From Lachnospiraceae bacterium (lineage in GTDB: Bacteria; Bacillota; Clostridia; Lachnospirales; Lachnospiraceae), in contig JAAWNY010000019.1 in assembly GCA_022799175.1 (NCBI GenBank), forward strand, positions 1 through 48,401: a DNA stretch of 48,401 nucleotides, given 5' to 3'. The notes beneath the pieces are model-generated. The model worked only from the letters and a program-made list of their open reading frames with translations, was not told the DNA's origin and made no database searches. Below, piece by piece: positions 26,029 to 39,494 of this stretch (within the stretch, counting starts at the first letter, position 1; every line of letters begins with the position of its first letter). The translations under genes and the position numbers were made by a program.

Positions 26029-29000
26029 ATGAAACGAGGAATAGCAGCGTTTCTGGTGGTCTGCATGGCATTGCAGACGCCAATTTCTTCGCTGACTTCT
26101 TACGGAGGCGAGGGAAACGGATTGCTGCAGGTATTGAAAAAAGGGACGAATAAAGGGGTTTTGCAGGAAATTTATAGCGATAGAGAAGCAACAGCATCGG
26201 ATGAAAAGAAAGAGCTGTTGGCGAGTGCTTCTGGCAGTGGAATGAGGTATGACCGGGAGAACGGAATGCTCCGAATCGCGATTCGAAATTTTCTTGGCAT
26301 AGAAGACAGTAGTTTTAATATTCGTCTGGAGCCAGATAAAAAGACGGCAAAGACCTTGGATATTCCAGGAGATCTGGATGAGAATTTTCATACAGATTGG
26401 GGAAACAGTAGCACAAGAGAAGCTGTTTTTGAAATGTTTGACATTCCAGAGGGAAAGTATACTTTGTTCTTGACCCAGAATGAAGATGGAACAGGAGCTT
26501 TTCTGCCGTTTGTCCAGAAAAAGGTCGAGATTAAGTCAAGAACCGTGACTACGCTGAATCTGGCGAATGATTATCCGGAATATTATGGATATGAAGAAGA
26601 GGAAAATTCGAATTCCCGGAAGATGGGACTATTGGTGCCAGGAAATTTTGCAGATGATGGCGGAGAAGAGGAGAAGCTCAACGAGGAGGATTTGGAAGAG
26701 CTTATGGAAGCCATCTATGAGGATTCCCTGGATCCCCGATATGATTTAAATGGAGATGGCGAAGTCAACCTGATTGATTTGGAATATTTTGCCAGATTTT
26801 ATAAGAACAGGGATGAGCGTCCAAAAGCAAAAATGGTGACGACTCCACTGATAAGAGAAGATGATGTTGAAAAAGCATTATGCGGCAATAATTCCAGTGA
26901 GGATGTCCGCCGGCTGTTTACAGGAGAAAGAAGCCAGGATGGAGAACCGATATTTCAGGCAGCACCTGACAATGGCGGTCTTATTTCCGGAGATAATCCT
27001 GTCGAACTTTCAGCAGAGTTCCGAGATCCTGTTGAAACAAGGGGATTTGCAATTGTGCCGCAGATAGGTTCTTTGAATGTAATGGTCAGTGGCGCGGTGA
27101 TCTTTGAGGATTCTGACGGCAACCGGTATGAGGCGCTGATCAAAGAAGGCAAGCAACAGGGAAGCATAAAGGTTTCCCGGAGTGGTGACAGAAAAAAAGA
27201 GGTTTCTTCCGGGCAGGAGGAAGCGCCGGTAGCGACAGATGCATCAGCCAAAAGCTATACTATTATGAAAAGGGTTGCTTTTGCAGGGAGAGGAATTGCT
27301 ACACCGGCAAATAGCAATGCCAACGCTATGGCAGAATTTTTGAATGATTATGCCAATGAAAAAGGTTTTGTGGCAAAGAGAGAAGCAGAAGCTCCTAAGG
27401 ATGAAGAGGCTCTTCAGGGAAAAACGATATTGATTGATCTGGAAAAGCAGATCGCGGTTAAACGGGTATTGATCCGAATTGAAGAGACGCTGGGAGCCGG
27501 AATGGAAGGTTACGGTGAACTGGCGGAGATTTCCCGGGTGGAGTTTTTAAATAATATGGAAGACCATATTCCGGAGCCGGATCTTTCAATACCAGATAGA
27601 CTGAAAGGCGAGCCAGGAGATGCACAGTTTACCGTGCGCTGGCGACATCAGTCGAATGTTACAGGGTATGTGCTTCATGCGTCCGGGGAGACAATGAAAG
27701 GAGAAAAGACGTTCATATATCCCAGTCAGGAAGAGAATTTCCTGGAAATTTCCAATATAGATGGGGGCGACGTAGATAATGGTAAACCGTATACCGTGAA
27801 AGTTCGTTCCGTTAATGGAGACTGGAGAAGTGAATACAGTGAGCCTATTGTCGTGATTCCAGAAGCGAAGAGTCGTCCGACTCCCCCCCAGCAGATTCAG
27901 ATTACTGGCGGATACCGGAAGCTGAGCGTGTCATGGAGGAAGATGAAAGGCACAGACAGCTATAGCATATATTATCGGGAAAAAGACAGCGAGGACCCGA
28001 CGTTTGCGGAGCTCCATGGACTTGTTGGTACAACGGCAGAGATTACAGGATTAAAGGATGAAGTGACATATGAGCTTTATATGACGGCGACAAACCAGAT
28101 AGGAACCAGCGATCCTTCCGAGATGTATAGCGGAAAGACCCGAATTGTAAAGGCGCCGGAGACACCGAATTTCTACTTGCTGAATGTGCCGAAAGAGGGC
28201 GGTGGCGTATCGGATGTGATTACCAGTGTTGAGATTGGCGCGAATTCTGCGAATCAGCCTTGTGACGAATTTGCTGTGGTAGATGGAATCTATGAGACAG
28301 CATGGGTGAGAACGGACTGGGATGCAGGCTGTTCTTATAGCAATAGTGATGGTAATTCACCGATTATTACCTTTGATCAGCCTTATGAGATGGATACTGT
28401 AGTGATTATTCCGGATTATGAGCAACCTTACGGATATAGCCAGTGTCGGGTGATCTATTGGGATGCCGAGAATGTCAGACATGTGGCAAACGGGCGTCTG
28501 ACTGCGAAAAAAGATAAAGATGATCTGCTTTATTATGAGTTCCAGGCAAGTGAGAAATTTACGGCAAAGAAAGTCCGGGTAGCAGTTCAGACATCACATG
28601 GCGGAGCAAGAAGGATCAGCTATGCAGAACTTAAGTTTTATAAATATTATGATCTGCAGGAGCGGATTTATGGAATGTATACGGATGATCTCCATGTAGA
28701 ATTGAATGAGAATGTAACCCAGAAGATGATTGATGATTTTTATAAGGAGCTGGAGTTTGTAGATGAAACCTGCAATGAAAAAACTCCGCAGTATGAATTC
28801 TTGAAGCAAGAGTTGGAGAATGCAGAAATGATCTTGAAGCTGGGGAGAAGCTCTGGAAAGATTCTGCAGGTGAATACAAAGCTTGCGCACAAAAAAGACG
28901 GACATATTTCTTTTAGTGGCGGATTAAATACTTGGCAGCCATTAGGGGTTGCCGGCCTAGCTGGAGACAAGGTTGCAGTCTATGTGGGAGCTAAGGGGAA

Positions 29001-31647
29001 ACGCCTAGGAGATCCGGTTAGTCTGACGGTGATTGCTGCTCAATATCATGGAGAATCTAATACTGTGTTTACTACGGCAGGAACACTGCGAGTAGGTCCC
29101 AACGAAGTAGTGATTCCCAGGATTAGCAATATGGTCAGTGCAGAACAGGGCGGTCAACTTTATATTCGATATGATGGTAATTATAATCAGGGAGAATATG
29201 CAGTTCGGGTAAATATCCCTGGAGTTGAGGAGGGGCAGTCAAAGGCGGCGATGATTCCGGCTCTGGATCTGGCGGGAGTGTCAGAAGAAGAGCGGGCGGA
29301 GCGGTTGGATGCCTATATTGGTGAGTTACAGGCTTTGGACCCGGAGGAAATGCATAACCAGAATCACGGGGAAGCAGGTTTGGCCTATGATGCCAGGAAT
29401 TGTATTTTTGGTGCTACGGATCTGGCTGGAAAACGGGCAATGTTCTCGCTTCCGGCAGCAGAACTTTTGTCGGGATGTGGCGGTTCCGGGCAGGCGCTGG
29501 GAGATTCTTTGCAGGCGATGGATGAAATGCTGGAATTGTTTTATCAGCATAAAGGACTGAGCGAAGCTTCGGATGCTGGCGAAAGGAATCAAATGCCGGT
29601 AGGCCGTATTAATATCCGGTATCAAAGAATGTTCGAAGGGGCATTTATGTACGCCGGCGGCGCTCATATTGGTATTGAGTATGGATCGGCGTCAGGCATG
29701 GCACGTGGAGTGCCGATAGTAGCAGATGAAAAAGGAAGATATATATCCGGAAATTATTTTGGTTGGGGAATCGGTCATGAGATTGGTCATGAAATTAATG
29801 AAGGTGCTTATGCAGTGGCAGAAGTGACCAATAATTACTTCCCGCAGCTTGAAAAATCACGCGACAGCAACGATACGGTGCGTTGGGATTATGATAAACT
29901 ATATCAGAAAGTAAATTCCGGGGCAAAGGGGCCGTCTTCTAACGGGGCGGTACAGCTAGGGATGTATTGGCAGCTTCATCTTGCTTATGATCGAGATTAC
30001 AATTTTAAGGTTTATGACAATTATCAGGAGCAGTTTGATGGATTATTCTTTGCACGAGTGGATTCTTATGCGAGAACGCCATCTTCGGCGCCGAGTCCTG
30101 GTGGAGTGAATTTGAGTCTGGACGGCGATAAGGATAATAATATTATGCGACTGGGATGTGCAGCAGCAAATAAAAATATTCTGGAGTTCTTCGAACGATG
30201 GGGGATGGAGCCAGACGAAAAGACGCAAAAATATGCTGCGCAGTTTGAGAAGGAGACCCGTGCGATCTGGCTAGCCACGGATGACCAAAGAGTCGAAGTG
30301 ATAGAAAGAGGCGATGAGCCGGAAGGAGAAAGTGAGATTCGTGTAGAGGGAACGTTGTCTTATAGTGAGTCTGTGGGAACTGGAAATCAGGTGGAAATTG
30401 ATCTTATGGCAGATTCGGAGACGGATTTCTTTGGCTATGAAGTATTCCGGATTGAACATCAGGGAACAAAGACGCTTCGCCGGCCGGTGGGATTTGTGAC
30501 ACCAGAGGAATCGGCATTAACAGACAAAGTGGTCACTGTCAACAACCGGGCGTTTACTTATGAGGTAGTAGGTTATGATATCTGGTTGCGTCCGACGAAG
30601 GCATATACGATCGGCGATGCCCGGGTATCTCATAACGGAAATCTGGATTCGTCAAAATGGACGGCAGATACCAATATGGTGGGGATTGATGACGGAGCTG
30701 CGGATAATGATACAGCGCCTTCAGAAGAGAATCCGGACACCATCGAAAAAAATATGATCGGTCGTGTGGTTGACGGAGATAATGCAACGACCTATCGCGG
30801 AAAGACGAAAACAGAAACGCCAGAGATTCTTTTGTATTTAAATGGTGAGGAAGTTTTGACAGGGCTGGAATACCGGCTGTCGGAAAACGGCACCTCGATA
30901 GGAGCCTTTGAGATTTATTTAAGTAAAGACGGTACTACCTGGCAGAAAGCATCTACGGAAGAGACCTCCTTTACGCTCTCTGAAGACAGTAGTGGAGTTA
31001 AGAGACACAAAATTCTTTTCAGCGCTCCAGCAGAAGAGGGTAGCGGCAGAGAGCTGGTTACCTATGATGCTTCGATTGTGAAGCTGACAGCTCCTGGCCA
31101 GGAGGGAAAAGAGCTTGCAGTTTCTGAGATTGTTTTGTTTGGACAGACGGGAGATCGAGTGGATCTGGCGGCGGATGGAATTGGCAGATTGGCAGAGGCG
31201 CTTACGGACGGAACGACAAATGAGGTTTTGATTCCTAAGGATTCTTTGATATTTACAGGAACTTATAAAGGGAATCCTGCTTATAATTCATTGCTTTTGT
31301 GGGATGAATCCGGAAAGATCGTGGGAGGATCCGATGGCAGTGCAACCGTTGCGGAACAGCTGATTTTTGCACCAGATCCGGGAACTGGAGATTTGACAGA
31401 GATTTCTAATGGCCATTGGGTATACTTTATTCGTCCAGAACATTTGACAGCTACATTGCCAAAGACGGTACGAGCAGAATTATACCGGGTGGATCATGCA
31501 ATCAGTCAGAAGGGACAGCGACTGGTGAGTTCTACGATATCCGTAGCCGTTCCGGAGAATTTGCCGGAGATCCGTTTGACAGGATTGAGTAACATGGAAG
31601 TACGGACATTGCAAACAAAAGAAGATGATGAGAGGGGGAATGAGTGA
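26029..31647 (+). CDS. Secreted M60-type (gluzincin) metalloprotease with dockerin-like, FN3 and F5/8-type domains
   Basis: This 1872-residue protein has an N-terminal signal peptide (hydrophobic core AAFLVVCMALQTP) and no evident membrane or LPXTG anchor. Domains in order: a single EF-hand/dockerin-like unit (YDLNGDGEVNLIDLEYF, about 238-254); two fibronectin type III-like domains (about 523-615 and 617-705); an F5/8-type (CBM32-like) domain (about 713-877); a peptidase M60 region with zinc motif HEIGH at 1250-1254 and the third ligand Glu1265 in AVAEVTNN; and another F5/8-like domain near 1550-1710. M60 enzymes are known to cleave mucin-type glycoproteins. AGGAGGATAAGGAGC precedes ATG 26029. 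The next gene's ATG overlaps its stop by one base. Domain borders are approximate. Confidence 0.87.
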   Translation: MKRGIAAFLVVCMALQTPISSLTSYGGEGNGLLQVLKKGTNKGVLQEIYSDREATASDEKKELLASASGSGMRYDRENGMLRIAIRNFLGIEDSSFNIRLEPDKKTAKTLDIPGDLDENFHTDWGNSSTREAVFEMFDIPEGKYTLFLTQNEDGTGAFLPFVQKKVEIKSRTVTTLNLANDYPEYYGYEEEENSNSRKMGLLVPGNFADDGGEEEKLNEEDLEELMEAIYEDSLDPRYDLNGDGEVNLIDLEYFARFYKNRDERPKAKMVTTPLIREDDVEKALCGNNSSEDVRRLFTGERSQDGEPIFQAAPDNGGLISGDNPVELSAEFRDPVETRGFAIVPQIGSLNVMVSGAVIFEDSDGNRYEALIKEGKQQGSIKVSRSGDRKKEVSSGQEEAPVATDASAKSYTIMKRVAFAGRGIATPANSNANAMAEFLNDYANEKGFVAKREAEAPKDEEALQGKTILIDLEKQIAVKRVLIRIEETLGAGMEGYGELAEISRVEFLNNMEDHIPEPDLSIPDRLKGEPGDAQFTVRWRHQSNVTGYVLHASGETMKGEKTFIYPSQEENFLEISNIDGGDVDNGKPYTVKVRSVNGDWRSEYSEPIVVIPEAKSRPTPPQQIQITGGYRKLSVSWRKMKGTDSYSIYYREKDSEDPTFAELHGLVGTTAEITGLKDEVTYELYMTATNQIGTSDPSEMYSGKTRIVKAPETPNFYLLNVPKEGGGVSDVITSVEIGANSANQPCDEFAVVDGIYETAWVRTDWDAGCSYSNSDGNSPIITFDQPYEMDTVVIIPDYEQPYGYSQCRVIYWDAENVRHVANGRLTAKKDKDDLLYYEFQASEKFTAKKVRVAVQTSHGGARRISYAELKFYKYYDLQERIYGMYTDDLHVELNENVTQKMIDDFYKELEFVDETCNEKTPQYEFLKQELENAEMILKLGRSSGKILQVNTKLAHKKDGHISFSGGLNTWQPLGVAGLAGDKVAVYVGAKGKRLGDPVSLTVIAAQYHGESNTVFTTAGTLRVGPNEVVIPRISNMVSAEQGGQLYIRYDGNYNQGEYAVRVNIPGVEEGQSKAAMIPALDLAGVSEEERAERLDAYIGELQALDPEEMHNQNHGEAGLAYDARNCIFGATDLAGKRAMFSLPAAELLSGCGGSGQALGDSLQAMDEMLELFYQHKGLSEASDAGERNQMPVGRINIRYQRMFEGAFMYAGGAHIGIEYGSASGMARGVPIVADEKGRYISGNYFGWGIGHEIGHEINEGAYAVAEVTNNYFPQLEKSRDSNDTVRWDYDKLYQKVNSGAKGPSSNGAVQLGMYWQLHLAYDRDYNFKVYDNYQEQFDGLFFARVDSYARTPSSAPSPGGVNLSLDGDKDNNIMRLGCAAANKNILEFFERWGMEPDEKTQKYAAQFEKETRAIWLATDDQRVEVIERGDEPEGESEIRVEGTLSYSESVGTGNQVEIDLMADSETDFFGYEVFRIEHQGTKTLRRPVGFVTPEESALTDKVVTVNNRAFTYEVVGYDIWLRPTKAYTIGDARVSHNGNLDSSKWTADTNMVGIDDGAADNDTAPSEENPDTIEKNMIGRVVDGDNATTYRGKTKTETPEILLYLNGEEVLTGLEYRLSENGTSIGAFEIYLSKDGTTWQKASTEETSFTLSEDSSGVKRHKILFSAPAEEGSGRELVTYDASIVKLTAPGQEGKELAVSEIVLFGQTGDRVDLAADGIGRLAEALTDGTTNEVLIPKDSLIFTGTYKGNPAYNSLLLWDESGKIVGGSDGSATVAEQLIFAPDPGTGDLTEISNGHWVYFIRPEHLTATLPKTVRAELYRVDHAISQKGQRLVSSTISVAVPENLPEIRLTGLSNMEVRTLQTKEDDERGNE

Positions 31648-32843
31648 TGAAGAAGATTTATAAAAGAGCACTGGTTGGCGCAGCCATGTGCGGTCTGACA
31701 ACGATAGCTGCTTTGATTCCCCTGAACGCCTTCAGTTCTCGTGCGGCAGAGGGGCTGGTAACTTGGCAGGATGCCGGAAAAAAGGGAGAACAAAGAGGAG
31801 TAAAGATAAACGTTCAGCTAGATGAGGACGAGATTTTTGATGAAAGCGCCACCTTCCAGCTTGCGTTGCTTTTGGATCCGGGTCCGGAAGGTGAGATTGA
31901 AGAGTGTGATTTTACATTTAAAAGGAATATCAAAAGAAGCAGTTCGGAAGACATTGTAATTCAGGAGAAGCATTATGATGAGGATAGCCATGAGCTTTTG
32001 CTGGTGATTGCCGGAAGAAGAGACAAAGATGGTAAGGGAGGTGTTCTGAATAAGGAGCAGGCACTGGAACTTGGCACTCTGTATGTGGTCTCGAAACAGG
32101 ATGTGACGGTCTCCTTGATTGAAGAAAAATGTCTGGCAGTGGATGAGAGTGGAATCCAACAGAATTTCAGTCAGTTGGGAAATCAGGAGAATACCAGTTA
32201 TGTTTTGAAGGCCGAAGAGGACATAGAAGAATCCGAACCGCCTGTTGTCACACCACCGTCTGAAGAAGAACCGCCTGTTGTCACACCACCGTCTGAAGAA
32301 GATAATGAAAATGACGGAAACGGAAGTAGAGGTGGAGGCGGAAGCGGTGGACCCACCGGTCCTACTGCGACCCCGGGGCCAGGAAATCCAGTAGAAACGA
32401 AGGGTTCCTGGGAAAAGACGGAAACGGGCGCTTGGCGATTCAAAAAGGAGAATGCCGTTTATGCCCAAAATGAATGGCTACTGAATGGTGGCTTATGGTA
32501 TCGAATTGGCGAAGATGGCCTGTTGGTAACAGGATGGTTCCAATTTGAAGGGAAATGGTATTATCTGAGGCCATCTGGAGAAATGGCAATCGGATGGCAG
32601 AAGGATCAGGACTGGTGGTATCATTTGGGAGTTGCAGGAGCTATGGATATTGGTTGGATTCAGATTGATGGGAAGTGGTATCTGCTGAATGAAATAATGC
32701 CAGTACCACAAAAGAGGATGGATCCGGCTACTGGGCAAATGATAGAAAGTACAGAAGGTCAGATGCCTTATGGCGCATTGTATGTCAATACGACAACACC
32801 GGATGGTTATGTAGTGGATGAGAGTGGGAGGATGGTTCCCTAA
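31647..32843 (+). CDS. Secreted protein with cohesin-like N-domain and choline-binding-type (CW) repeats
   Basis: This 398-residue protein has a signal peptide (cleavage near SSRAAEG), a beta-rich domain of about 130 residues (from GVKINVQL to TVSLIEEKCL), a Pro/Glu/Gly-rich linker and then aromatic-rich cell-wall-binding repeats (GWFQFEGKWYYL, GWQKDQDWWYHL, GWIQIDGKWYLL; about 285-350). Such repeats bind choline on teichoic acids in pneumococci, or other glycans in toxins and glucan-binding proteins. The N-domain has a weak resemblance to cohesins (ALELGTLYVV followed by TVSLIEE); this is speculative. The start overlaps the stop of the M60 protease gene (TGATG), so the two are made together. 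Confidence 0.78.
   Translation: MKKIYKRALVGAAMCGLTTIAALIPLNAFSSRAAEGLVTWQDAGKKGEQRGVKINVQLDEDEIFDESATFQLALLLDPGPEGEIEECDFTFKRNIKRSSSEDIVIQEKHYDEDSHELLLVIAGRRDKDGKGGVLNKEQALELGTLYVVSKQDVTVSLIEEKCLAVDESGIQQNFSQLGNQENTSYVLKAEEDIEESEPPVVTPPSEEEPPVVTPPSEEDNENDGNGSRGGGGSGGPTGPTATPGPGNPVETKGSWEKTETGAWRFKKENAVYAQNEWLLNGGLWYRIGEDGLLVTGWFQFEGKWYYLRPSGEMAIGWQKDQDWWYHLGVAGAMDIGWIQIDGKWYLLNEIMPVPQKRMDPATGQMIESTEGQMPYGALYVNTTTPDGYVVDESGRMVP
32235..32300 (+). repeat. Two perfect 33-base tandem repeats coding for EPPVVTPPSEE
   Basis: Two identical 33-base units (32235-32267 and 32268-32300) encode a Pro-rich 11-residue linker repeat. Identity at every base suggests recent duplication and possible length variation by slippage. 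Confidence 0.9.
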
Positions 32844-33196: not shown

Positions 33197-33835
33197 ATGG
33201 AGACAAGGTATAAGAAAATCCACACGGCGGGAACCAATGCAGCATTGAAGGTAACACCAGGGCATTTTGCGACGAATCATTCTCATATCAATTATTATTT
33301 GGATATGACAACCTTGAAGACCAGAGCAAGTGAGGCGCAGGATGTGGCGAAGGGGATGATGGGAACATATCTGTATGGAATGGTGGTTGATACGATTGTT
33401 TGCATGGAGGGAACGGAGGTCATTGGAGCCTTTTTGTCGGAAGAGCTGACTAGAAGTGGGGTTCTTTCCAAGAATATGCATAAGACGATCTATATTGTAC
33501 GACCGGAGTTTAATAATAATAGCCAAATTATTTTTCGGGATAATACGGCGCCGATGATTAAGGATAAACATGTGATCATTTTGATGGCGACGGTGACTAC
33601 CGGATTTTCCGTAATGAAGGCGATAGAAAGTGTCCAATATTATGGTGGAAAGTTACAAGGGGTGTCTGCTATCTTCAGCGCTGTCCACGAGGTTGGCGGT
33701 GTGCCAGTTCACGCAGTATTTGGGAAGAAGGATTTGCCGGATTATGTAGACTATGATTATCGGGAATGTCCGCTATGTAAGCAGGGACAGAAACTGGATG
33801 CACTGGTGAATGCATACGGATACTCAAAATTGTAG
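33197..33835 (+). CDS. Phosphoribosyltransferase-like protein
   Basis: This 212-residue protein resembles orotate-type phosphoribosyltransferases. The stretch KHVIILMATVTTGFSVMKA sits where PRTases carry the PRPP-binding loop (usually two acidic residues followed by TTG); here the acidic pair is replaced by Met-Ala, so activity may be altered. A CPLCKQGQ segment near the C-terminus offers a Cys pair. ATG 33197 is preceded by GGAAGGGGG; an in-frame TTG or ATG further upstream would run through the promoter. It is the first gene of the transcription unit that continues, after 35 bases, into the STM4015-like gene, so it may be part of that system. Confidence 0.68.
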   Translation: METRYKKIHTAGTNAALKVTPGHFATNHSHINYYLDMTTLKTRASEAQDVAKGMMGTYLYGMVVDTIVCMEGTEVIGAFLSEELTRSGVLSKNMHKTIYIVRPEFNNNSQIIFRDNTAPMIKDKHVIILMATVTTGFSVMKAIESVQYYGGKLQGVSAIFSAVHEVGGVPVHAVFGKKDLPDYVDYDYRECPLCKQGQKLDALVNAYGYSKL

Positions 33836-33870
33836 ATTGTGAATAATGGATGAAGAAGGAGGAGCCAGAT

Positions 33871-34725
33871 ATGGTGAGTAAGACATATTCATACGGGTAT
33901 GATGAGTATGAGGAGGGGAAAGGACCATCTACAATGGTGGAGGATATTTTAGCGGATCCAGAGCTTTCTGAGCTGACAGAATTGATTATTGGAAGTTGGG
34001 GCAGTGCATATGAAGATGGCTGTCAGCCGATTATTGATGGAATTATTGAAAATGCTGGGAGGTTTTCTCATATTGAGAAGCTGTTTATCGGTGATATGGA
34101 TTTTGAGGAGTGTGAGGTTTCTTGGATTATCCAGGGAGATTATAGTAAACTGTGGGCGGCATTGCCGAATCTGAAAGAATTGACGATTAAGGGAAGTACC
34201 GATCTGGGTCTGGGGGAAATCATTCACGAGAATCTAGAGGCTCTGACGATCATTTGTGGTGGGCTTCCCGTTGGCAATCTGGAAGAGATTGGGAAAGCCA
34301 GACTGCCAAAGTTAAAAAAGTTGTTGCTTTATATTGGAAGCGATAATTATGGCTTTGACGGAAATGCAGATACGATTCATAAACTTTTGGCAAAGGCAGA
34401 TTTTCCGGAATTAGAGTATCTGGGAATTGTGGACAGCGAGATTCAGGATGAACTGGTGGAGGTGGTACTGAATAGTAAGTTTATGAATCAGATTCATACA
34501 TTGGATCTATCTTGTGGTACCTTATCGGATAAAGGTGGGAAATTGCTTTTGGAAAAGCTTCCCCAGTACAGTAATATCAAGAAGTTGGATGTTCACTATC
34601 ATTTTATGACAGAAGAGATGATGAAGAAGCTGGAAGCGTTGCCGATCTCTGTGGATGCTTCTGACAGAAATAATCCGGGGAGTTATCGTGGCGAAACTTA
34701 TATGTATGCCATGCTGACAGAATGA
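33871..34725 (+). CDS. STM4015 family protein (leucine-rich-repeat-like)
   Basis: This 284-residue protein matches my memory of the STM4015 family, named from a Salmonella locus. It begins with a variable 25-residue region, then LTELIIGSWGSAYED and a series of repeat-like segments of 25 to 30 residues with regular leucines (LPNLKELTIKG, LPKLKKLLLYIG, FPELEYLGIVDSE, IHTLDLSCGTLSDKGG), i.e. an LRR-type solenoid. No catalytic motif is evident, so it is likely a scaffold, substrate or binding partner. ATG 33871 has GGAGGAG 6 bases upstream; the in-frame ATG 33850 would place that site inside the gene. Its stop overlaps the next start (ATGA). Confidence 0.82.
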   Translation: MVSKTYSYGYDEYEEGKGPSTMVEDILADPELSELTELIIGSWGSAYEDGCQPIIDGIIENAGRFSHIEKLFIGDMDFEECEVSWIIQGDYSKLWAALPNLKELTIKGSTDLGLGEIIHENLEALTIICGGLPVGNLEEIGKARLPKLKKLLLYIGSDNYGFDGNADTIHKLLAKADFPELEYLGIVDSEIQDELVEVVLNSKFMNQIHTLDLSCGTLSDKGGKLLLEKLPQYSNIKKLDVHYHFMTEEMMKKLEALPISVDASDRNNPGSYRGETYMYAMLTE

Positions 34726-35789
34726 GGCAGGTCGTGCTTCTGGGAAAGCCAGATACGAAACGGACTCATTATCTGGGGCGTGTAGCGCGGGAGGCCGGGC
34801 TGCATGTCCTGTTTTTGGATTGGGATCACTGGCAGGAGAATTTGCCTAAAGGCAGGATTTTCATGAAGATCGATCCGCCGGTGTGGGACAGTTGCTCGCT
34901 GGAGCAACTAGGATCGCTAATCGGAGATTATCAGAAGCAGTTAGAGGCGCTTAGCCGGTTCGGGCGGTTGCAAGATGTGAAATTCTTGAATACTCCGGAG
35001 ACAATTGCGACACTATTGGATAAGCGGGAGAGTAAGCGGCGGTTGGCAGCCGCCGGACTAGCAGTTTCAGAGGAACTAAAGATCGTTCAAGAAGATGTGC
35101 TGGAAGTGGAGCAGCTTCTGGATATCATGCAAAAACAGCGGATCCATCAGGTTTTCATCAAACCGATTTATGGCTCTGGCGCTGCAGGAATTGCAGCATT
35201 TCGGTGGCAACCACGTACGAAACAGATGGTTTTATATACTTGTGCCTGGGAAGTGCCGGACAGAGAAGATAAAAAGTTAAATAAGCTAATCAATACCAAG
35301 AAATTACGGCGGTTTACGGACTCCAAACAGGTGCTTTCCATGGTGGAAAGGCTTTTGAAGCTTGGATGTATTGTAGAACGATGGCACGCGAAGGCAGAAT
35401 ACCAGGGATATTCTTATGATTTACGGGCTGTGGTACAAGATGGAAGGATGGATTTTTGTCTGGCTAGGTTGTCAAAAGGGCCGATTACCAATTTACATTT
35501 AAATAATCATCCTCTAAAACTGGAAAGTTTAGGGCTTCCCCAAAATGTAATCAATGACATCGAGGAGTTGTGCCGGCAGGGGATGGGATGTTTTTCTGGA
35601 CTTCGAAGCGCCGGAATCGATATTTTGTTGGAAAGAGGAAGTTGGAAGCCAAGAATTATCGAGATGAACGCACAGGGAGATTTGTTATATCAAGATATTT
35701 ATGGGGAAAATGTGATTTACCAAAGGCAGGTAGAAATGATGAGGGAAGAAGCGTACCTTGTCCATGGAATACAGGGAAAGGACAGATAG
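34722..35789 (+). CDS. STM4014 family protein (ATP-grasp-like)
   Basis: This 355-residue protein looks like an ATP-grasp ligase: a Rossmann-like N-terminal part (VVLLGKPDTKRTHYLGR), a lid/loop region with FIKPIYGSGAAGI at about 145-157, where KP plus a Gly-rich loop bind ATP, and a C-terminal RIIEMNAQGDLLYQD (about 311-325) with the Glu and Asn that bind magnesium. ATP-grasp enzymes join carboxylates to amines through acyl phosphates. It overlaps the STM4015-like gene by 4 bases and abuts the STM4013-like gene with no spacer, showing tight coupling. The substrate is unknown. Confidence 0.83.
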   Translation: MRQVVLLGKPDTKRTHYLGRVAREAGLHVLFLDWDHWQENLPKGRIFMKIDPPVWDSCSLEQLGSLIGDYQKQLEALSRFGRLQDVKFLNTPETIATLLDKRESKRRLAAAGLAVSEELKIVQEDVLEVEQLLDIMQKQRIHQVFIKPIYGSGAAGIAAFRWQPRTKQMVLYTCAWEVPDREDKKLNKLINTKKLRRFTDSKQVLSMVERLLKLGCIVERWHAKAEYQGYSYDLRAVVQDGRMDFCLARLSKGPITNLHLNNHPLKLESLGLPQNVINDIEELCRQGMGCFSGLRSAGIDILLERGSWKPRIIEMNAQGDLLYQDIYGENVIYQRQVEMMREEAYLVHGIQGKDR

Positions 35790-36668
35790 ATGGGAGATAG
35801 AGATCAGGAACAAGCAGGAGAGATTCCTTTTTGGTTGCTTTTGTCTGAGAAAGGGCATAAGGCTCCTTCCGTAGACATGAGACAGATAGTGGGGACACAG
35901 GATATTTTGTTCCTTTGCTTGGATACGCTGCGTTATGATGCGGCAGTACAGGAGGAAACCGAGGGAAATACTCCTGTGTTGAATCGGTATGGCCCCTGGG
36001 AGAAGCGCCAGGCGCCGGGAAATTTCACATACCCTTCTCATCATGCTATGTTTGCCGGATTTTTGCCTTGTGCATTTGAGGCAAAGAGCCTGGCGGATCG
36101 GGAAATGTTGTTTTTTCCCAGACAAATTGGCATGGGGAGGAAAATTCCGGCGGGGGCATTTGGATTTACGGGCGGTACCATTATGGAAGGATTGGAAAAA
36201 GAGGGTTATGATACTTGGTGTGTAGGGGGCGTGGCTTTTTTTGATAAGCGTAGCGAGTTGGGAAGCGTATTTCCTGGATATTTTCAAAAAAGTTATTGGA
36301 ACCCTTCTTTTGCCTGTCCCGTGAAAGAGAGTACCAAAAATCAGGTGGATTTTATTTTGAAAAAGCTTGGCAAGGCAGATGCAAGGCGTCATATTTTTCT
36401 TTACTTGAATGTGGATGCTATTCACTATCCCAATTATTTTTATCTGGATGGTGTGGAAAATGATAATCTGGCAAGCCATCGGGCAGCGTTGCGATATGTG
36501 GATGGAGAATTAGGCAGATTATTGGAGGGCTGGAAGCAGATGCGAGGTGGTGGTTTTGCGATTTGCTGTTCCGATCATGGCACTTGTTATGGGGAAGATG
36601 GCTGCCAGTTTCATGGGATTCATCATCCGTCGGTAAATACGGTTCCTTATAAACATTTTTTCTTTTAA
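35790..36668 (+). CDS. STM4013/SEN3800 family hydrolase (alkaline phosphatase/sulfatase superfamily)
   Basis: This 292-residue protein has the alkaline phosphatase/sulfatase superfamily layout. LCLDTLRYDAA carries the first metal-binding Asp45; TYPSHHAMFAGFLP (80-93) holds the nucleophile region, with Thr or Ser in place of the sulfatase Cys; NVDAIHYP and CSDHGTCYGEDG (about 260-271) with HGIHH supply further metal ligands. There is no signal peptide, so it acts in the cytoplasm. Its ATG directly follows the STM4014-like stop codon. It may remove a phosphate or sulfate-type group from a pathway intermediate, which is inference. Confidence 0.83.
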   Translation: MGDRDQEQAGEIPFWLLLSEKGHKAPSVDMRQIVGTQDILFLCLDTLRYDAAVQEETEGNTPVLNRYGPWEKRQAPGNFTYPSHHAMFAGFLPCAFEAKSLADREMLFFPRQIGMGRKIPAGAFGFTGGTIMEGLEKEGYDTWCVGGVAFFDKRSELGSVFPGYFQKSYWNPSFACPVKESTKNQVDFILKKLGKADARRHIFLYLNVDAIHYPNYFYLDGVENDNLASHRAALRYVDGELGRLLEGWKQMRGGGFAICCSDHGTCYGEDGCQFHGIHHPSVNTVPYKHFFF

Positions 36669-36697
36669 AATCTGTCATTGTTTCCGGAGGTTTACTT

Positions 36698-38014
36698 ATG
36701 AATCCTTATGTTCAATATATGTACAGTTATCCTCATAAGACCGCGTATCGCTCATTAGATGGAATTTTTTTGCATGAGTATGCTGCACTGCTGACAGGAA
36801 AAGGGCATGGGTTATATCTTCATGTTCCGTTTTGTCAGGGAAAATGTGGATATTGTAATTTGTTTTCCGTCACAGACCAGGATGAAAGGCAGATGGGACA
36901 ATATTTCGATGCCGTGGAGCGTCAGAGCCGGCAATATCAGAAAATGCTGGAACCTTATGGAACGGAATTTTCAGCATTTACTATAGGGGGAGGAACGCCG
37001 TTGTTGCTGCCAGAACGCCAGTTGGAACGAATGTTTGCGATGGTGAAGGATTGTTTTTCGCTAGAGAGGACTGGAGAAATCGGAATTGAGACGGCTCCGA
37101 ATCAGACGAAAAGAGAAAAATTAGAATTACTAAAGCAAGCGGGAGTTACCAGAGTCAGTATGGGGATCCAGAGCTTCTTTGATGAAGAATTGCGAGTATT
37201 GCGGCGGGGCCACCGGGCAGAGCGTGCCAGGAGAGCATTGGAAATTTTGATGAATATGGATTTTTCCTGTGTAAATGTGGATTTTATTTATGGGATTCCG
37301 GGACAGACGATAGAATCTTTGCAGGCGTCCTTGAAGGAAGCGATTGGTTTTGGAGTGGATGAAATTTTTTTATATCCGCTTTATGTAAAGCATGGAGCAG
37401 GGTTGATACAGGAAGGAATCGTGCTGGATCCAGAGTACGCATACCAACAGTATTGGGAGATGTCGGAGTATCTGCAATCAGAGGGGTTTCGGCAGGATTC
37501 GATGCGGCGGTTTGTGCGGAAAAAATTTGGAGAAGAATCTCGAAGAAAGTTTTCCGAGTGTGGTTTCGGAACTTCGTTGGCATTGGGATGCGGCGGAAGA
37601 AGCTATGTAGGGCGGCTTCATTTTTGCACTCCTTATACCGTGACACAGCAGAGTTGTCTAGAGCAGCTAAAGAGATTTGAGGAGACAGAGGATTTTTTGG
37701 TCGTGAAGCATGGGATTTTGTTGTCAGAGGAGGAACAGAAGCGACGGTATGTAATTCGCCATCTGTTGATTCGACCAGGGATTGCAAAAGAGAGGTATAG
37801 GGAGATATTTGGCTCCTCCCTATGGGCGGATTTTCCTATATTGGAGAGGTGGGTCGAGGAAGAATGGTTGCAGATAGAAGAGACAGAAGAATACCAGAGC
37901 TTTTTGTCATTGACAAAGGAGGGGATAGGACTTTCCGATTATCTGGGACCTATGTTGATTTCCCGAGAAGTATCTGGGAAAATGCAGGAATGGGAGACCA
38001 TTTATGAGTCATAA
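36698..38014 (+). CDS. STM4012 family radical SAM protein (HemN-like)
   Basis: This 438-residue enzyme has the radical SAM cluster motif C46-x3-C50-x2-C53 in YLHVPFCQGKCGYCN, followed by IGGGTPLLL (the GGE-type SAM-binding motif), IGIETAPNQ, RVSMGIQSF and VDFIYGIPGQT, which place it in the HemN-like subfamily (coproporphyrinogen dehydrogenase, HemW, ChuW). The gene context is unlike haem synthesis, since no other haem genes are nearby. CCGGAGG lies 8 bases before ATG 36698. Its last 11 bases overlap the start of the STM4011-like gene, so the two radical SAM proteins are probably made in equal amounts. Confidence 0.88.
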   Translation: MNPYVQYMYSYPHKTAYRSLDGIFLHEYAALLTGKGHGLYLHVPFCQGKCGYCNLFSVTDQDERQMGQYFDAVERQSRQYQKMLEPYGTEFSAFTIGGGTPLLLPERQLERMFAMVKDCFSLERTGEIGIETAPNQTKREKLELLKQAGVTRVSMGIQSFFDEELRVLRRGHRAERARRALEILMNMDFSCVNVDFIYGIPGQTIESLQASLKEAIGFGVDEIFLYPLYVKHGAGLIQEGIVLDPEYAYQQYWEMSEYLQSEGFRQDSMRRFVRKKFGEESRRKFSECGFGTSLALGCGGRSYVGRLHFCTPYTVTQQSCLEQLKRFEETEDFLVVKHGILLSEEEQKRRYVIRHLLIRPGIAKERYREIFGSSLWADFPILERWVEEEWLQIEETEEYQSFLSLTKEGIGLSDYLGPMLISREVSGKMQEWETIYES

Positions 38015-39494
38015 GGTAATTTTGTATCGGGGGAGTTTAAAAAGTTGTAATTATGATTGCAGTTATTGCCCGTTTTCTAAGCACCAGAGCGGTCAAAGAG
38101 AGTTGCAACAAGACCGGAAAGCATGGTTTCGATTTGTGGAAAGTATGGTGGGAGCGGTGGCATCTGATGATTATCGGGCTTTTATGTTGACGCCTTATGG
38201 CGAGGCATTGATTTATCCCTGGTACTGGGAAGGGCTGGCCAAACTTAGCAGAACGGAAAAACTGGAAGTTGTGGGAGCGCAAACAAACCTTAGCTTTTCG
38301 TTAAAAGATTCCCTGGATTATTTTGAAAAGAATGGAGGAAAAATCGAGAAACTACGATTGTGGGCCTCCTTTCATCCAGAGATGATATCGCCGGAGAATT
38401 TCGCTGAAAAGTGCATCCAGGTGTGGAGATCCGGTATTACTGTATGTGCAGGAGCGGTGGGAAAACCGGAGAATTTGAAATGGATTCAAAAACTGCGCAG
38501 TTTACTGCCCAAGGGGATTTATCTGTGGATCAACAAAATGGATGGTTTGAGACGGGATTACACGGAAGCGGAGAAGACGGCTTTTCTGGAAATGGATCCT
38601 TATTTTTGGCAAGAATTGATTCCAGTTCCCGCAGAAGAGAAACAATGTCAGGAGAGGCTTTTTGTAGAGAGTGACGGCAGACAGAGGATCTGCAATATCG
38701 GTCGAGTGGTAGAAGGAAATTGGTATGATGACAAGCGGGGGGAAGATGGTATATCTTTGCGATGTAACCGCAAATTTTGCTCGTGCTATCTTGCGTATGG
38801 CGGCAGAACCGATTTTATGAATCAGGTGTTATTTGGCCCATATCCAATTTTTCGGATTCCCCGGCGGCCGAAGGCAGTGTTTTTAGATATTATGGGAACT
38901 CTGATTCTAGAGGAAGATATGGCGGAAGGACGAAAACGACAACAAGAGTCAGGGACTTTTGCCCGCACGAAATTGGCAGTAGAGACATTAGCACAGGAGG
39001 GAGCACATCTCTTTTGGGCGACAACATTGCCAATCAAGGAAGCAGAAAGCCGTTGCCGGGAGATTGGACAATATTTTTGCGGCGGAATATTTGCTGGGGG
39101 AGCACATGTACTGGTGGAGCAGGCAGGGAAAAGACAGGAACATTTTTACCGATTGGAATGTGGTTCTTTATCCCGCTTGGAAGGATTAAAAAAGGAATTC
39201 GGATTTCGCATTTTGGAGTATTGTGATAAGGAGATACGATATAAGCTGACGCTGTTTCGCCAAAAAAATCGGCAGTGGAGCCGGGAAGAGGTCAGACAGA
39301 TGATGAAAGCTTTGGAGCCGCAGTATCGAAGTAAAGTACGCTGGATTCGGGAGGGTCATTGCCTTCAGCTGGTGGCGAAAGAAGCTACCAAAGAAAATGG
39401 AGTTCGGATGATTTGTGATTGGCTGGGAATTGCCTTATCCGAGATTGTGGCAGTGGGAAACTCACCAGAGGATGAGGCAATGATGAGACTGTAA
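38004..39494 (+). CDS. STM4011 family radical SAM protein fused to an atypical HAD domain
   Basis: This 496-residue protein has a radical SAM domain with C15-x3-C19-x2-C22 (SCNYDCSYCPFSK) and a C-terminal auxiliary cysteine cluster (C230, C254, C259, C261; CNRKFCSC), suggesting a second iron-sulfur cluster. From about residue 290 a HAD-like domain follows (AVFLDIMGTLI, D295, then WATTLPIKEA and GNSPEDEAMM). In the HAD motif the second Asp is replaced by Met297, and the protein ends directly after the last motif, so the HAD domain lacks the usual tail. The start overlaps STM4012 by 11 bases with GGGAG upstream. The radical SAM part fits the STM4011 family; the fusion is unusual. Confidence 0.83.
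   Translation: MSHKVILYRGSLKSCNYDCSYCPFSKHQSGQRELQQDRKAWFRFVESMVGAVASDDYRAFMLTPYGEALIYPWYWEGLAKLSRTEKLEVVGAQTNLSFSLKDSLDYFEKNGGKIEKLRLWASFHPEMISPENFAEKCIQVWRSGITVCAGAVGKPENLKWIQKLRSLLPKGIYLWINKMDGLRRDYTEAEKTAFLEMDPYFWQELIPVPAEEKQCQERLFVESDGRQRICNIGRVVEGNWYDDKRGEDGISLRCNRKFCSCYLAYGGRTDFMNQVLFGPYPIFRIPRRPKAVFLDIMGTLILEEDMAEGRKRQQESGTFARTKLAVETLAQEGAHLFWATTLPIKEAESRCREIGQYFCGGIFAGGAHVLVEQAGKRQEHFYRLECGSLSRLEGLKKEFGFRILEYCDKEIRYKLTLFRQKNRQWSREEVRQMMKALEPQYRSKVRWIREGHCLQLVAKEATKENGVRMICDWLGIALSEIVAVGNSPEDEAMMRL

Follow-up and report, generated by a model that had tools for sequence, protein, structure and literature searches.

The window, by which we mean the whole 48,401-nucleotide stretch of contig JAAWNY010000019.1 from a Lachnospiraceae bacterium, a gut Firmicute, carries five consecutive genes whose products fall in the families STM4015, STM4014, STM4013, STM4012 and STM4011: a leucine-rich repeat (LRR) protein, an ATP-grasp ligase, a hydrolase of the alkaline phosphatase (AP)/sulfatase superfamily, and two radical S-adenosylmethionine (SAM) proteins (Table 1). 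These families are annotated in Salmonella, in some Escherichia coli and in many other genomes. A search of the open-access literature by the five locus names returned isolated mentions only and nothing on the cassette; one paper lists STM4013 in its table of sigma54 binding sites, and PRK08208 is named in a methods paper.

Family membership here means a bit score above the curated NCBIfam cut-off of each model. All five window proteins exceed their own cut-offs, as a sequence-only reading of this DNA had predicted; the failure of the models, which it had named beforehand as refuting, did not occur. The accessions NF038073 to NF038076 run consecutively, so NCBI curators probably grouped these four families together. 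The open reading frame (ORF) coordinates, 33850-39494, reproduce the compact layout that had been described: from STM4015 to STM4011, successive genes overlap by 4 bases (ATGA), abut exactly, stand 29 bases apart and overlap by 11 bases. Because the largest internal gap is 29 bases, the five genes leave no space between them for a precursor-peptide ORF, in agreement with the earlier reading, which placed the end of the cassette correctly, at 39494, and its start too early, at 33197, where a separate phosphoribosyltransferase (PRTase)-like gene opens. It was silent on the HAD-IIB domain at the C-terminus of the window STM4011 protein; this fifth ORF spans 38004-39494 (+).

Table 1. Features of the cassette in the window, with the evidence for each assignment.
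Feature	Coordinates	Strand	Evidence
STM4015 family, LRR protein, 291 residues, proposed carrier or substrate	33850-34725	+	NF038076, 330.5 bits vs cut-off 275
Codons of C-terminal pentapeptide AMLTE, with Glu291 at its end as proposed acceptor	34708-34722	+	Conservation of the Glu end
STM4014 family, RimK/ArgX-like ATP-grasp ligase, 355 residues	34722-35789	+	NF038074, 325.4 bits vs 175
STM4013 family hydrolase, alkaline phosphatase/sulfatase superfamily	35790-36668	+	NF038075, 378.5 bits vs 250
STM4012 family, HemN-like radical SAM protein	36698-38014	+	NF006067, 492.8 bits vs 380
STM4011, radical SAM part	38004-38870 (3' border approximate)	+	NF038073, 287.1 bits vs 200, residues 5-286
HAD-IIB domain fused to STM4011	38871-39494 (5' border approximate)	+	PF08282, 32.8 bits

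Co-retention of the five genes

Among 398 genomes of the phylum, STM4015, STM4014 and STM4011 each score above cut-off in eight, and the eight are identical for all three families and include the source genome. All five genes are contiguous in six of the seven other carriers; genome G381 holds the full set over three contigs (STM4015; STM4014; STM4013-STM4012-STM4011). Within the family of the window, 3 of 150 genomes have an STM4013 above cut-off, one of them the source genome. A broader sample took the best 80 of at least 582 STM4013 relatives in species genomes, and is weighted to kin of the window; with viral, plasmid and window loci it comprises 91 loci, 66 of them adequately flanked, two contigs being counted twice (L025/L057 and L026/L098). 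The five genes lie within 5 kb on one strand in 61 of the 66, and the remaining five (L075, L076, L083, L104, L106) come from genomes that hold STM4015, STM4014 and STM4011 above cut-off elsewhere or further along the contig.

The gene order of the Salmonella numbering is the same in the window, as had been claimed, and in the Salmonella and E. coli loci, and is kept in 76 of the 80 loci that have all five genes. The deviants are L107 (STM4014 before STM4015), L106 (STM4012-STM4011 apart) and two scan artefacts (L039 and L075). Gene fusions link members to one another: STM4014-STM4013 (L068), STM4013-STM4012 (L089, L099) and STM4011-HAD. Clustering of 801 flanking ORFs of at least 90 residues found no conserved extra partner; the largest clusters span 13 of the 91 loci and resemble widespread families of transporter, ABC and kinase type. 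No peptidase or exporter conserved beside the set was found among the 91 loci. The five-gene cassette is a real unit.

Several loci depart from the common form. In L046 (5965-6330), a Bacteroides finegoldii plasmid record, STM4013 is reduced to an ORF of 77 residues and no STM4012 was found, while STM4015, STM4014 and STM4011 remain annotated. A Streptomyces plasmid carries an STM4013-like gene next to genes of the NUDIX and lasso B2 kinds (L044, 6962-7756), and a distant STM4013-like relative lies on a Ti plasmid (L045, 6100-6864); the other four genes are absent from both stretches as read. Two STM4011-like stretches (G511, G237) and one STM4014-like stretch (G456) have no further cassette family adjoining in the stretches read.

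STM4015 ends in glutamate in all sequences examined

The exact C-terminal residue of STM4015 is glutamate in 106 of 106 distinct translations. These derive from 97 ORFs, 94 of them distinct, with the total reached by adding genomes; ORFs open at a contig end were omitted. The tail is short, acidic and aromatic (YMYAMLTE, for example), and the final Glu is the sole invariant among its last residues, the position before it being Thr in 97, Gly in 5, Ser in 3 and Ala in 1. Conservation of this residue might be forced by the start codon of the next gene, an explanation that we reject because 41 of the 97 STM4015 ORFs share no bases with the cassette gene that follows, whichever start it has; a 4-base overlap occurs in 33. 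The AlphaFold2 model of the window protein has a pLDDT (predicted local distance difference test score) of 96.2, and PDB entry 2ra8 is a member of the family. The model aligns to 2ra8 as far as residue 357 of that entry, past the 354 residues that correspond to the native protein, so the tail seems to be ordered in that structure. A stretch around GDM..EECEVSWI is strongly conserved, and in Bacteroides a WGR domain is found together with the LRR domain.

One genome encodes more STM4015 proteins than enzymes: assembly G552 has five STM4015, one STM4014 and one STM4011. In these copies (G552: C168, C208, C212; L177, L178, L089) the tails vary before a fixed TE.

STM4014 resembles ligases of protein C-termini

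The best fold matches to the structural model of STM4014 are ArgX-LysW, LysX and RimK. Two residues of RimK touch the terminal Glu of its bound chain (PMC10092738). These residues, R189 and N262, align with R235 and N316 of STM4014, which are invariant in 44 of 44 sequences. This and the residue counts below were read from alignments of subsets (A3 to A7, of 44, 42, 32, 29 and 31 rows), of which A6 includes an outlier of 21% identity, the second copy at L075. Related ligase models place STM4014 far below their cut-offs (MptN, 30.6 vs 350 bits; rimK_rel, 20.8 vs 314.2 bits), and the RimK model gives no match to the window protein at an E-value of 0.01. STM4014 would work like the RimK, LysX and ArgX ligases and is a member of none of their curated families. 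A term search of two ATP-grasp surveys (PMC4431377 and PMC8939145) found no mention of LRR proteins.

The accompanying enzymes

Eight residues of STM4013 (D45, T80, H84, H212, D262, H263, H275, H279) are invariant in 32 of 32 aligned sequences. The place of the nucleophile is taken by Thr80, within the window motif T80-Y-P-S-H84, and the family lacks the CxPxR formylglycine motif that arylsulfatases have. Its PDB matches are a mix of sulfatases, nucleotide pyrophosphatases and phosphoethanolamine transferases. With Thr in the nucleophile place and CxPxR lacking, STM4013 is better read as a phospho-enzyme than as a sulfatase. The alkaline phosphatase/sulfatase fold proposed from sequence is borne out at the level of the superfamily, and its sulfatase half is made less likely by the lack of a formylglycine-type motif.

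In STM4012 the cysteines Cys46/50/53 are invariant in 29 of 29 aligned sequences, and the closest solved structures by profile are HemN (1olt, E 1.7e-64) and NocN (9p2u). STM4011 has invariant Cys15/19/22 together with an extra C-terminal cluster, C215, C230, C254, C259 and C261, invariant in 31 of 31 sequences save for C254, which is present in at least 90%; this pattern resembles the auxiliary cluster of radical SAM enzymes that act on peptides or proteins.

The HAD-IIB domain, whose profile match in the window is BT4131 (1ymq), is encoded on its own, following STM4011, in the loci read from Salmonella and E. coli. HAD phosphatases carry a DxD motif I. In the window the motif reads DIMGT, with the second Asp lost, and the protein stops six residues after GNSxxD. 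The second Asp is present in 30 of 55 long STM4011 ORFs, 6 having no pattern match and L039 being a frame artefact; several kin carry E, Q, V, M or A in its place. From this variation and the truncated end in the window, the fused domain seems to be in decay or on the way to another role, and because the second Asp is lost a phosphatase step by the window domain looks doubtful.

A proposed pathway and its alternatives

The sequence-only reading had named the LRR protein as one possible substrate, a suggestion that gains circumstantial support from the invariant C-terminal Glu and the RimK/ArgX-like ligase. We propose that STM4014 couples an amine to the Glu at the end of STM4015, with the remaining enzymes processing the load or the tail, a proposal about evenly balanced between right and wrong. 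STM4015, a ribosomally made LRR protein with a free terminal glutamate, would be the carrier or substrate; STM4014 would activate the carboxylate of that glutamate and join to it an amino acid or other amine, as structure, aligned residues and conservation suggest. STM4012 and STM4011 would next modify the STM4015 tail or the group that it bears. STM4013, probably a phosphodiesterase, phosphatase or phosphotransferase, would act on a phosphorylated group, as might the HAD domain where it is intact. Because no conserved peptidase or exporter was found beside the set, the product might stay on STM4015 or be freed by a member of the set such as STM4013. The order and chemistry of the steps after ligation are guesses from knowledge of the families.

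Several observations weigh against this proposal. Residues of the R235/N316 type occur in GshB too, so they would mark a RimK/GshB group rather than enzymes with protein substrates alone. ATP-grasp folds are much alike, with a Z gap of only 1.7 to 3.1 between ArgX and DcsG/Ddl, identity is 17%, and the sequence profile of STM4014 searched against PDB chains fails to tell Ddl (E 0.002) and RimK (E 0.0038) apart. RimK positions 7, 8, 64 and 68, which bind the Glu chain further upstream, are unconserved in STM4014, and only K141 and N213 of six RimK ADP contacts are matched in the alignment. The STM4015 tail may be conserved for docking, not catalysis. Independent occurrence of the genes, which the sequence-only reading had named as refuting, is rare, and two cases bear on it: a Streptomyces plasmid with an incomplete gene table, where the stretch read holds STM4013 and none of the other four, and genome G553, in which three STM4015 were found and neither STM4014 nor STM4011, and where the contig ends near the cassette. 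Of the interpretation given in that reading, the selected and transferable unit is supported; any substrate, product or reaction is hypothetical.

Two alternatives keep STM4015 at the centre and read its end differently. In a pathway akin to those of ribosomally synthesized and post-translationally modified peptides, the LRR domain would be a very large leader and the last 6-10 residues a core, modified or crosslinked into a peptide. This is unlikely: a folded leader of 290 residues would be unusual, the last residues include no invariant crosslink partner, given the variation at the position before the Glu, the graspetide ligases rank under ArgX and RimK among the fold matches of STM4014, and a conserved peptidase or exporter was not found beside the set. 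Alternatively, STM4015 could be a scaffold or sensor on which the enzymes gather, with the Glu as a docking motif and a free small molecule as the product of the pathway. LRR proteins usually bind proteins, and both the conserved GDM..EECEVSWI stretch and the WGR domain in Bacteroides would suit such a role; yet a docking motif need not sit at the exact terminus every time, the fold match of STM4014 is to ligases of protein C-termini, and several STM4015 copies beside a single enzyme set are better suited to a substrate. We judge a scaffold improbable.

Anaerobic sulfatase-maturing radical SAM enzymes mature sulfatases, and the pairing of a radical SAM protein with a sulfatase-fold protein in one operon, along with a Sulfatase Pfam match of 27.0 bits for STM4013, would allow STM4011 to be the maturase of STM4013 in a sulfatase system; but the nucleophile is neither Cys nor Ser in any of the 32 sequences, the position of the CxPxR arginine is His84, and the other members of the set go unexplained, which leaves this reading very little room. 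Much the same holds for STM4012 as a tetrapyrrole enzyme in heme metabolism: HemN is its closest solved structure, but the HemN, HemW, HemZ and HutW models all fall below their cut-offs (130 vs 324.95 bits for the HemN equivalog) while the STM4012 model exceeds its own, NocN, a radical SAM methyltransferase, matches too, and the partner genes are ill-suited to heme chemistry, so that we hold it barely credible. A role in anti-phage defence was also considered and rejected: PADLOC gave no match for four of the five proteins and a partial one for STM4012 (residues 121-238, 34.3 bits to PDC-M51A).

Spread across bacteria

The STM4013-STM4012 stretch is matched in 154 of 5426 E. coli genomes, and the full set lies between ompL and typA in the Salmonella locus and in one E. 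coli locus read. In a midpoint-rooted STM4013 tree of 84 rows, from which ORFs outside 255-345 residues or fused were left out (L040 and L041 among them), Bacteroidota and enterobacterial sequences fall inside a mostly Bacillota clade of 71 rows (support 100/99); support is weaker (89/39 and 88/77) at the forks that set their position in this clade. Transfer of the cassette between phyla would be the simplest reading. The nested tree rows, the shared set of eight phylum genomes and the E. coli count together bear out the earlier suggestion of a selected, transferable unit. Carriage by phage was tried as an explanation and set aside, 24 pattern matches in viral contigs yielding a single relative (L127), which falls inside the Bacteroidota branch. 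A record listed as a Salmonella plasmid (L037, NZ_CP019203.1) looks like a chromosomal stretch, because typA, glnA and glnL adjoin its cassette.

Neighbouring genes

The PRTase-like gene of the window (33197-33835) ends 14 bases before STM4015. Its protein has weak pyrE-type matches, none above cut-off, and among annotated loci it recurs only at L047 and L048; it was therefore rejected as a cassette member and looks like a local neighbour. Further upstream, 26029-32843 encodes a protein of 1872 residues, with a signal-like start, and then one of 399 residues with choline-binding repeats. The sole Rfam match above gathering score in the window is a COG2827 RNA (RF02938, 47774-47846, 64 bits).

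At another locus (L025, the same contig as L057, 8236-9273), a DUF4397 protein that has proline-rich repeats separates STM4013 from STM4012. In Streptomyces, Deinococcus and Methylobacterium (L039-L043), a DUF6745 protein and a protein of about 100 residues adjoin the cassette; neither is beside the cassette of the window. The smaller companion ends in V-x-D in five of five, and the L041 copy beside the cassette has no Pfam match.

Comparison with known systems

New in this analysis are the invariant C-terminal Glu of STM4015, a RimK/ArgX-like STM4014 with conserved acceptor contacts, and multicopy STM4015. Should STM4015 be loaded at this Glu, an obscure cassette would turn into a pathway open to test, an LRR protein would be added to the short list of ribosomal carriers known to bear metabolites or modifications as they are assembled, and RimK-type ligation would be linked to radical SAM chemistry. 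More tentatively, and on balance we would not expect it, the cassette could define a further class of carrier-protein biosynthesis, in which an LRR carrier with an invariant C-terminal Glu is loaded by a RimK/ArgX-like enzyme, its load rebuilt by two radical SAM enzymes and an AP-fold enzyme, and the set passed as a unit between bacteria of at least five phyla.

The graspetide synthetases PsnB and MdnC share with STM4014 the ATP-grasp fold and a ribosomal substrate, but match it with lower Z. Graspetide precursor cores contain repeated Thr/Glu crosslink pairs, whereas here there is no short precursor between the genes and no crosslink pattern in the STM4015 tail; with the final Glu alone invariant, STM4015 was rejected as a graspetide precursor. 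The peptide aminoacyl-tRNA ligases (PEARLs), with TglA, offer a likeness of idea, a metabolite built on the C-terminus of a ribosomal scaffold. PEARLs use aminoacyl-tRNA and resemble lanthipeptide dehydratases, and a peptidase frees the product; aminoacyl-tRNA use, a dehydratase-like enzyme and a peptidase are all lacking among the five genes. STM4012, for its part, matches HemN and NocN by profile but constitutes a separate family.

Further parallels are LysW with LysX/ArgX, and RimK with ribosomal protein S6 (RpsF). As with LysW, a RimK-type ligase lies beside a Glu-ending protein with an acidic aromatic tail. LysW is a small zinc-binding protein that ends in Glu, and the attached group is processed on the carrier; the partners in its pathway are a kinase, a reductase and an aminotransferase. 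The carrier proposed here is instead a 291-residue LRR protein without the LysW fold, and in place of those partners stand a pair of radical SAM enzymes and one enzyme of the AP superfamily. The partner of STM4014 is likewise not S6, its sequence escapes the RimK model, and the RimK system is not known to include radical SAM enzymes. The cassette would work like LysW-ArgX or RimK-S6 but belongs to neither.

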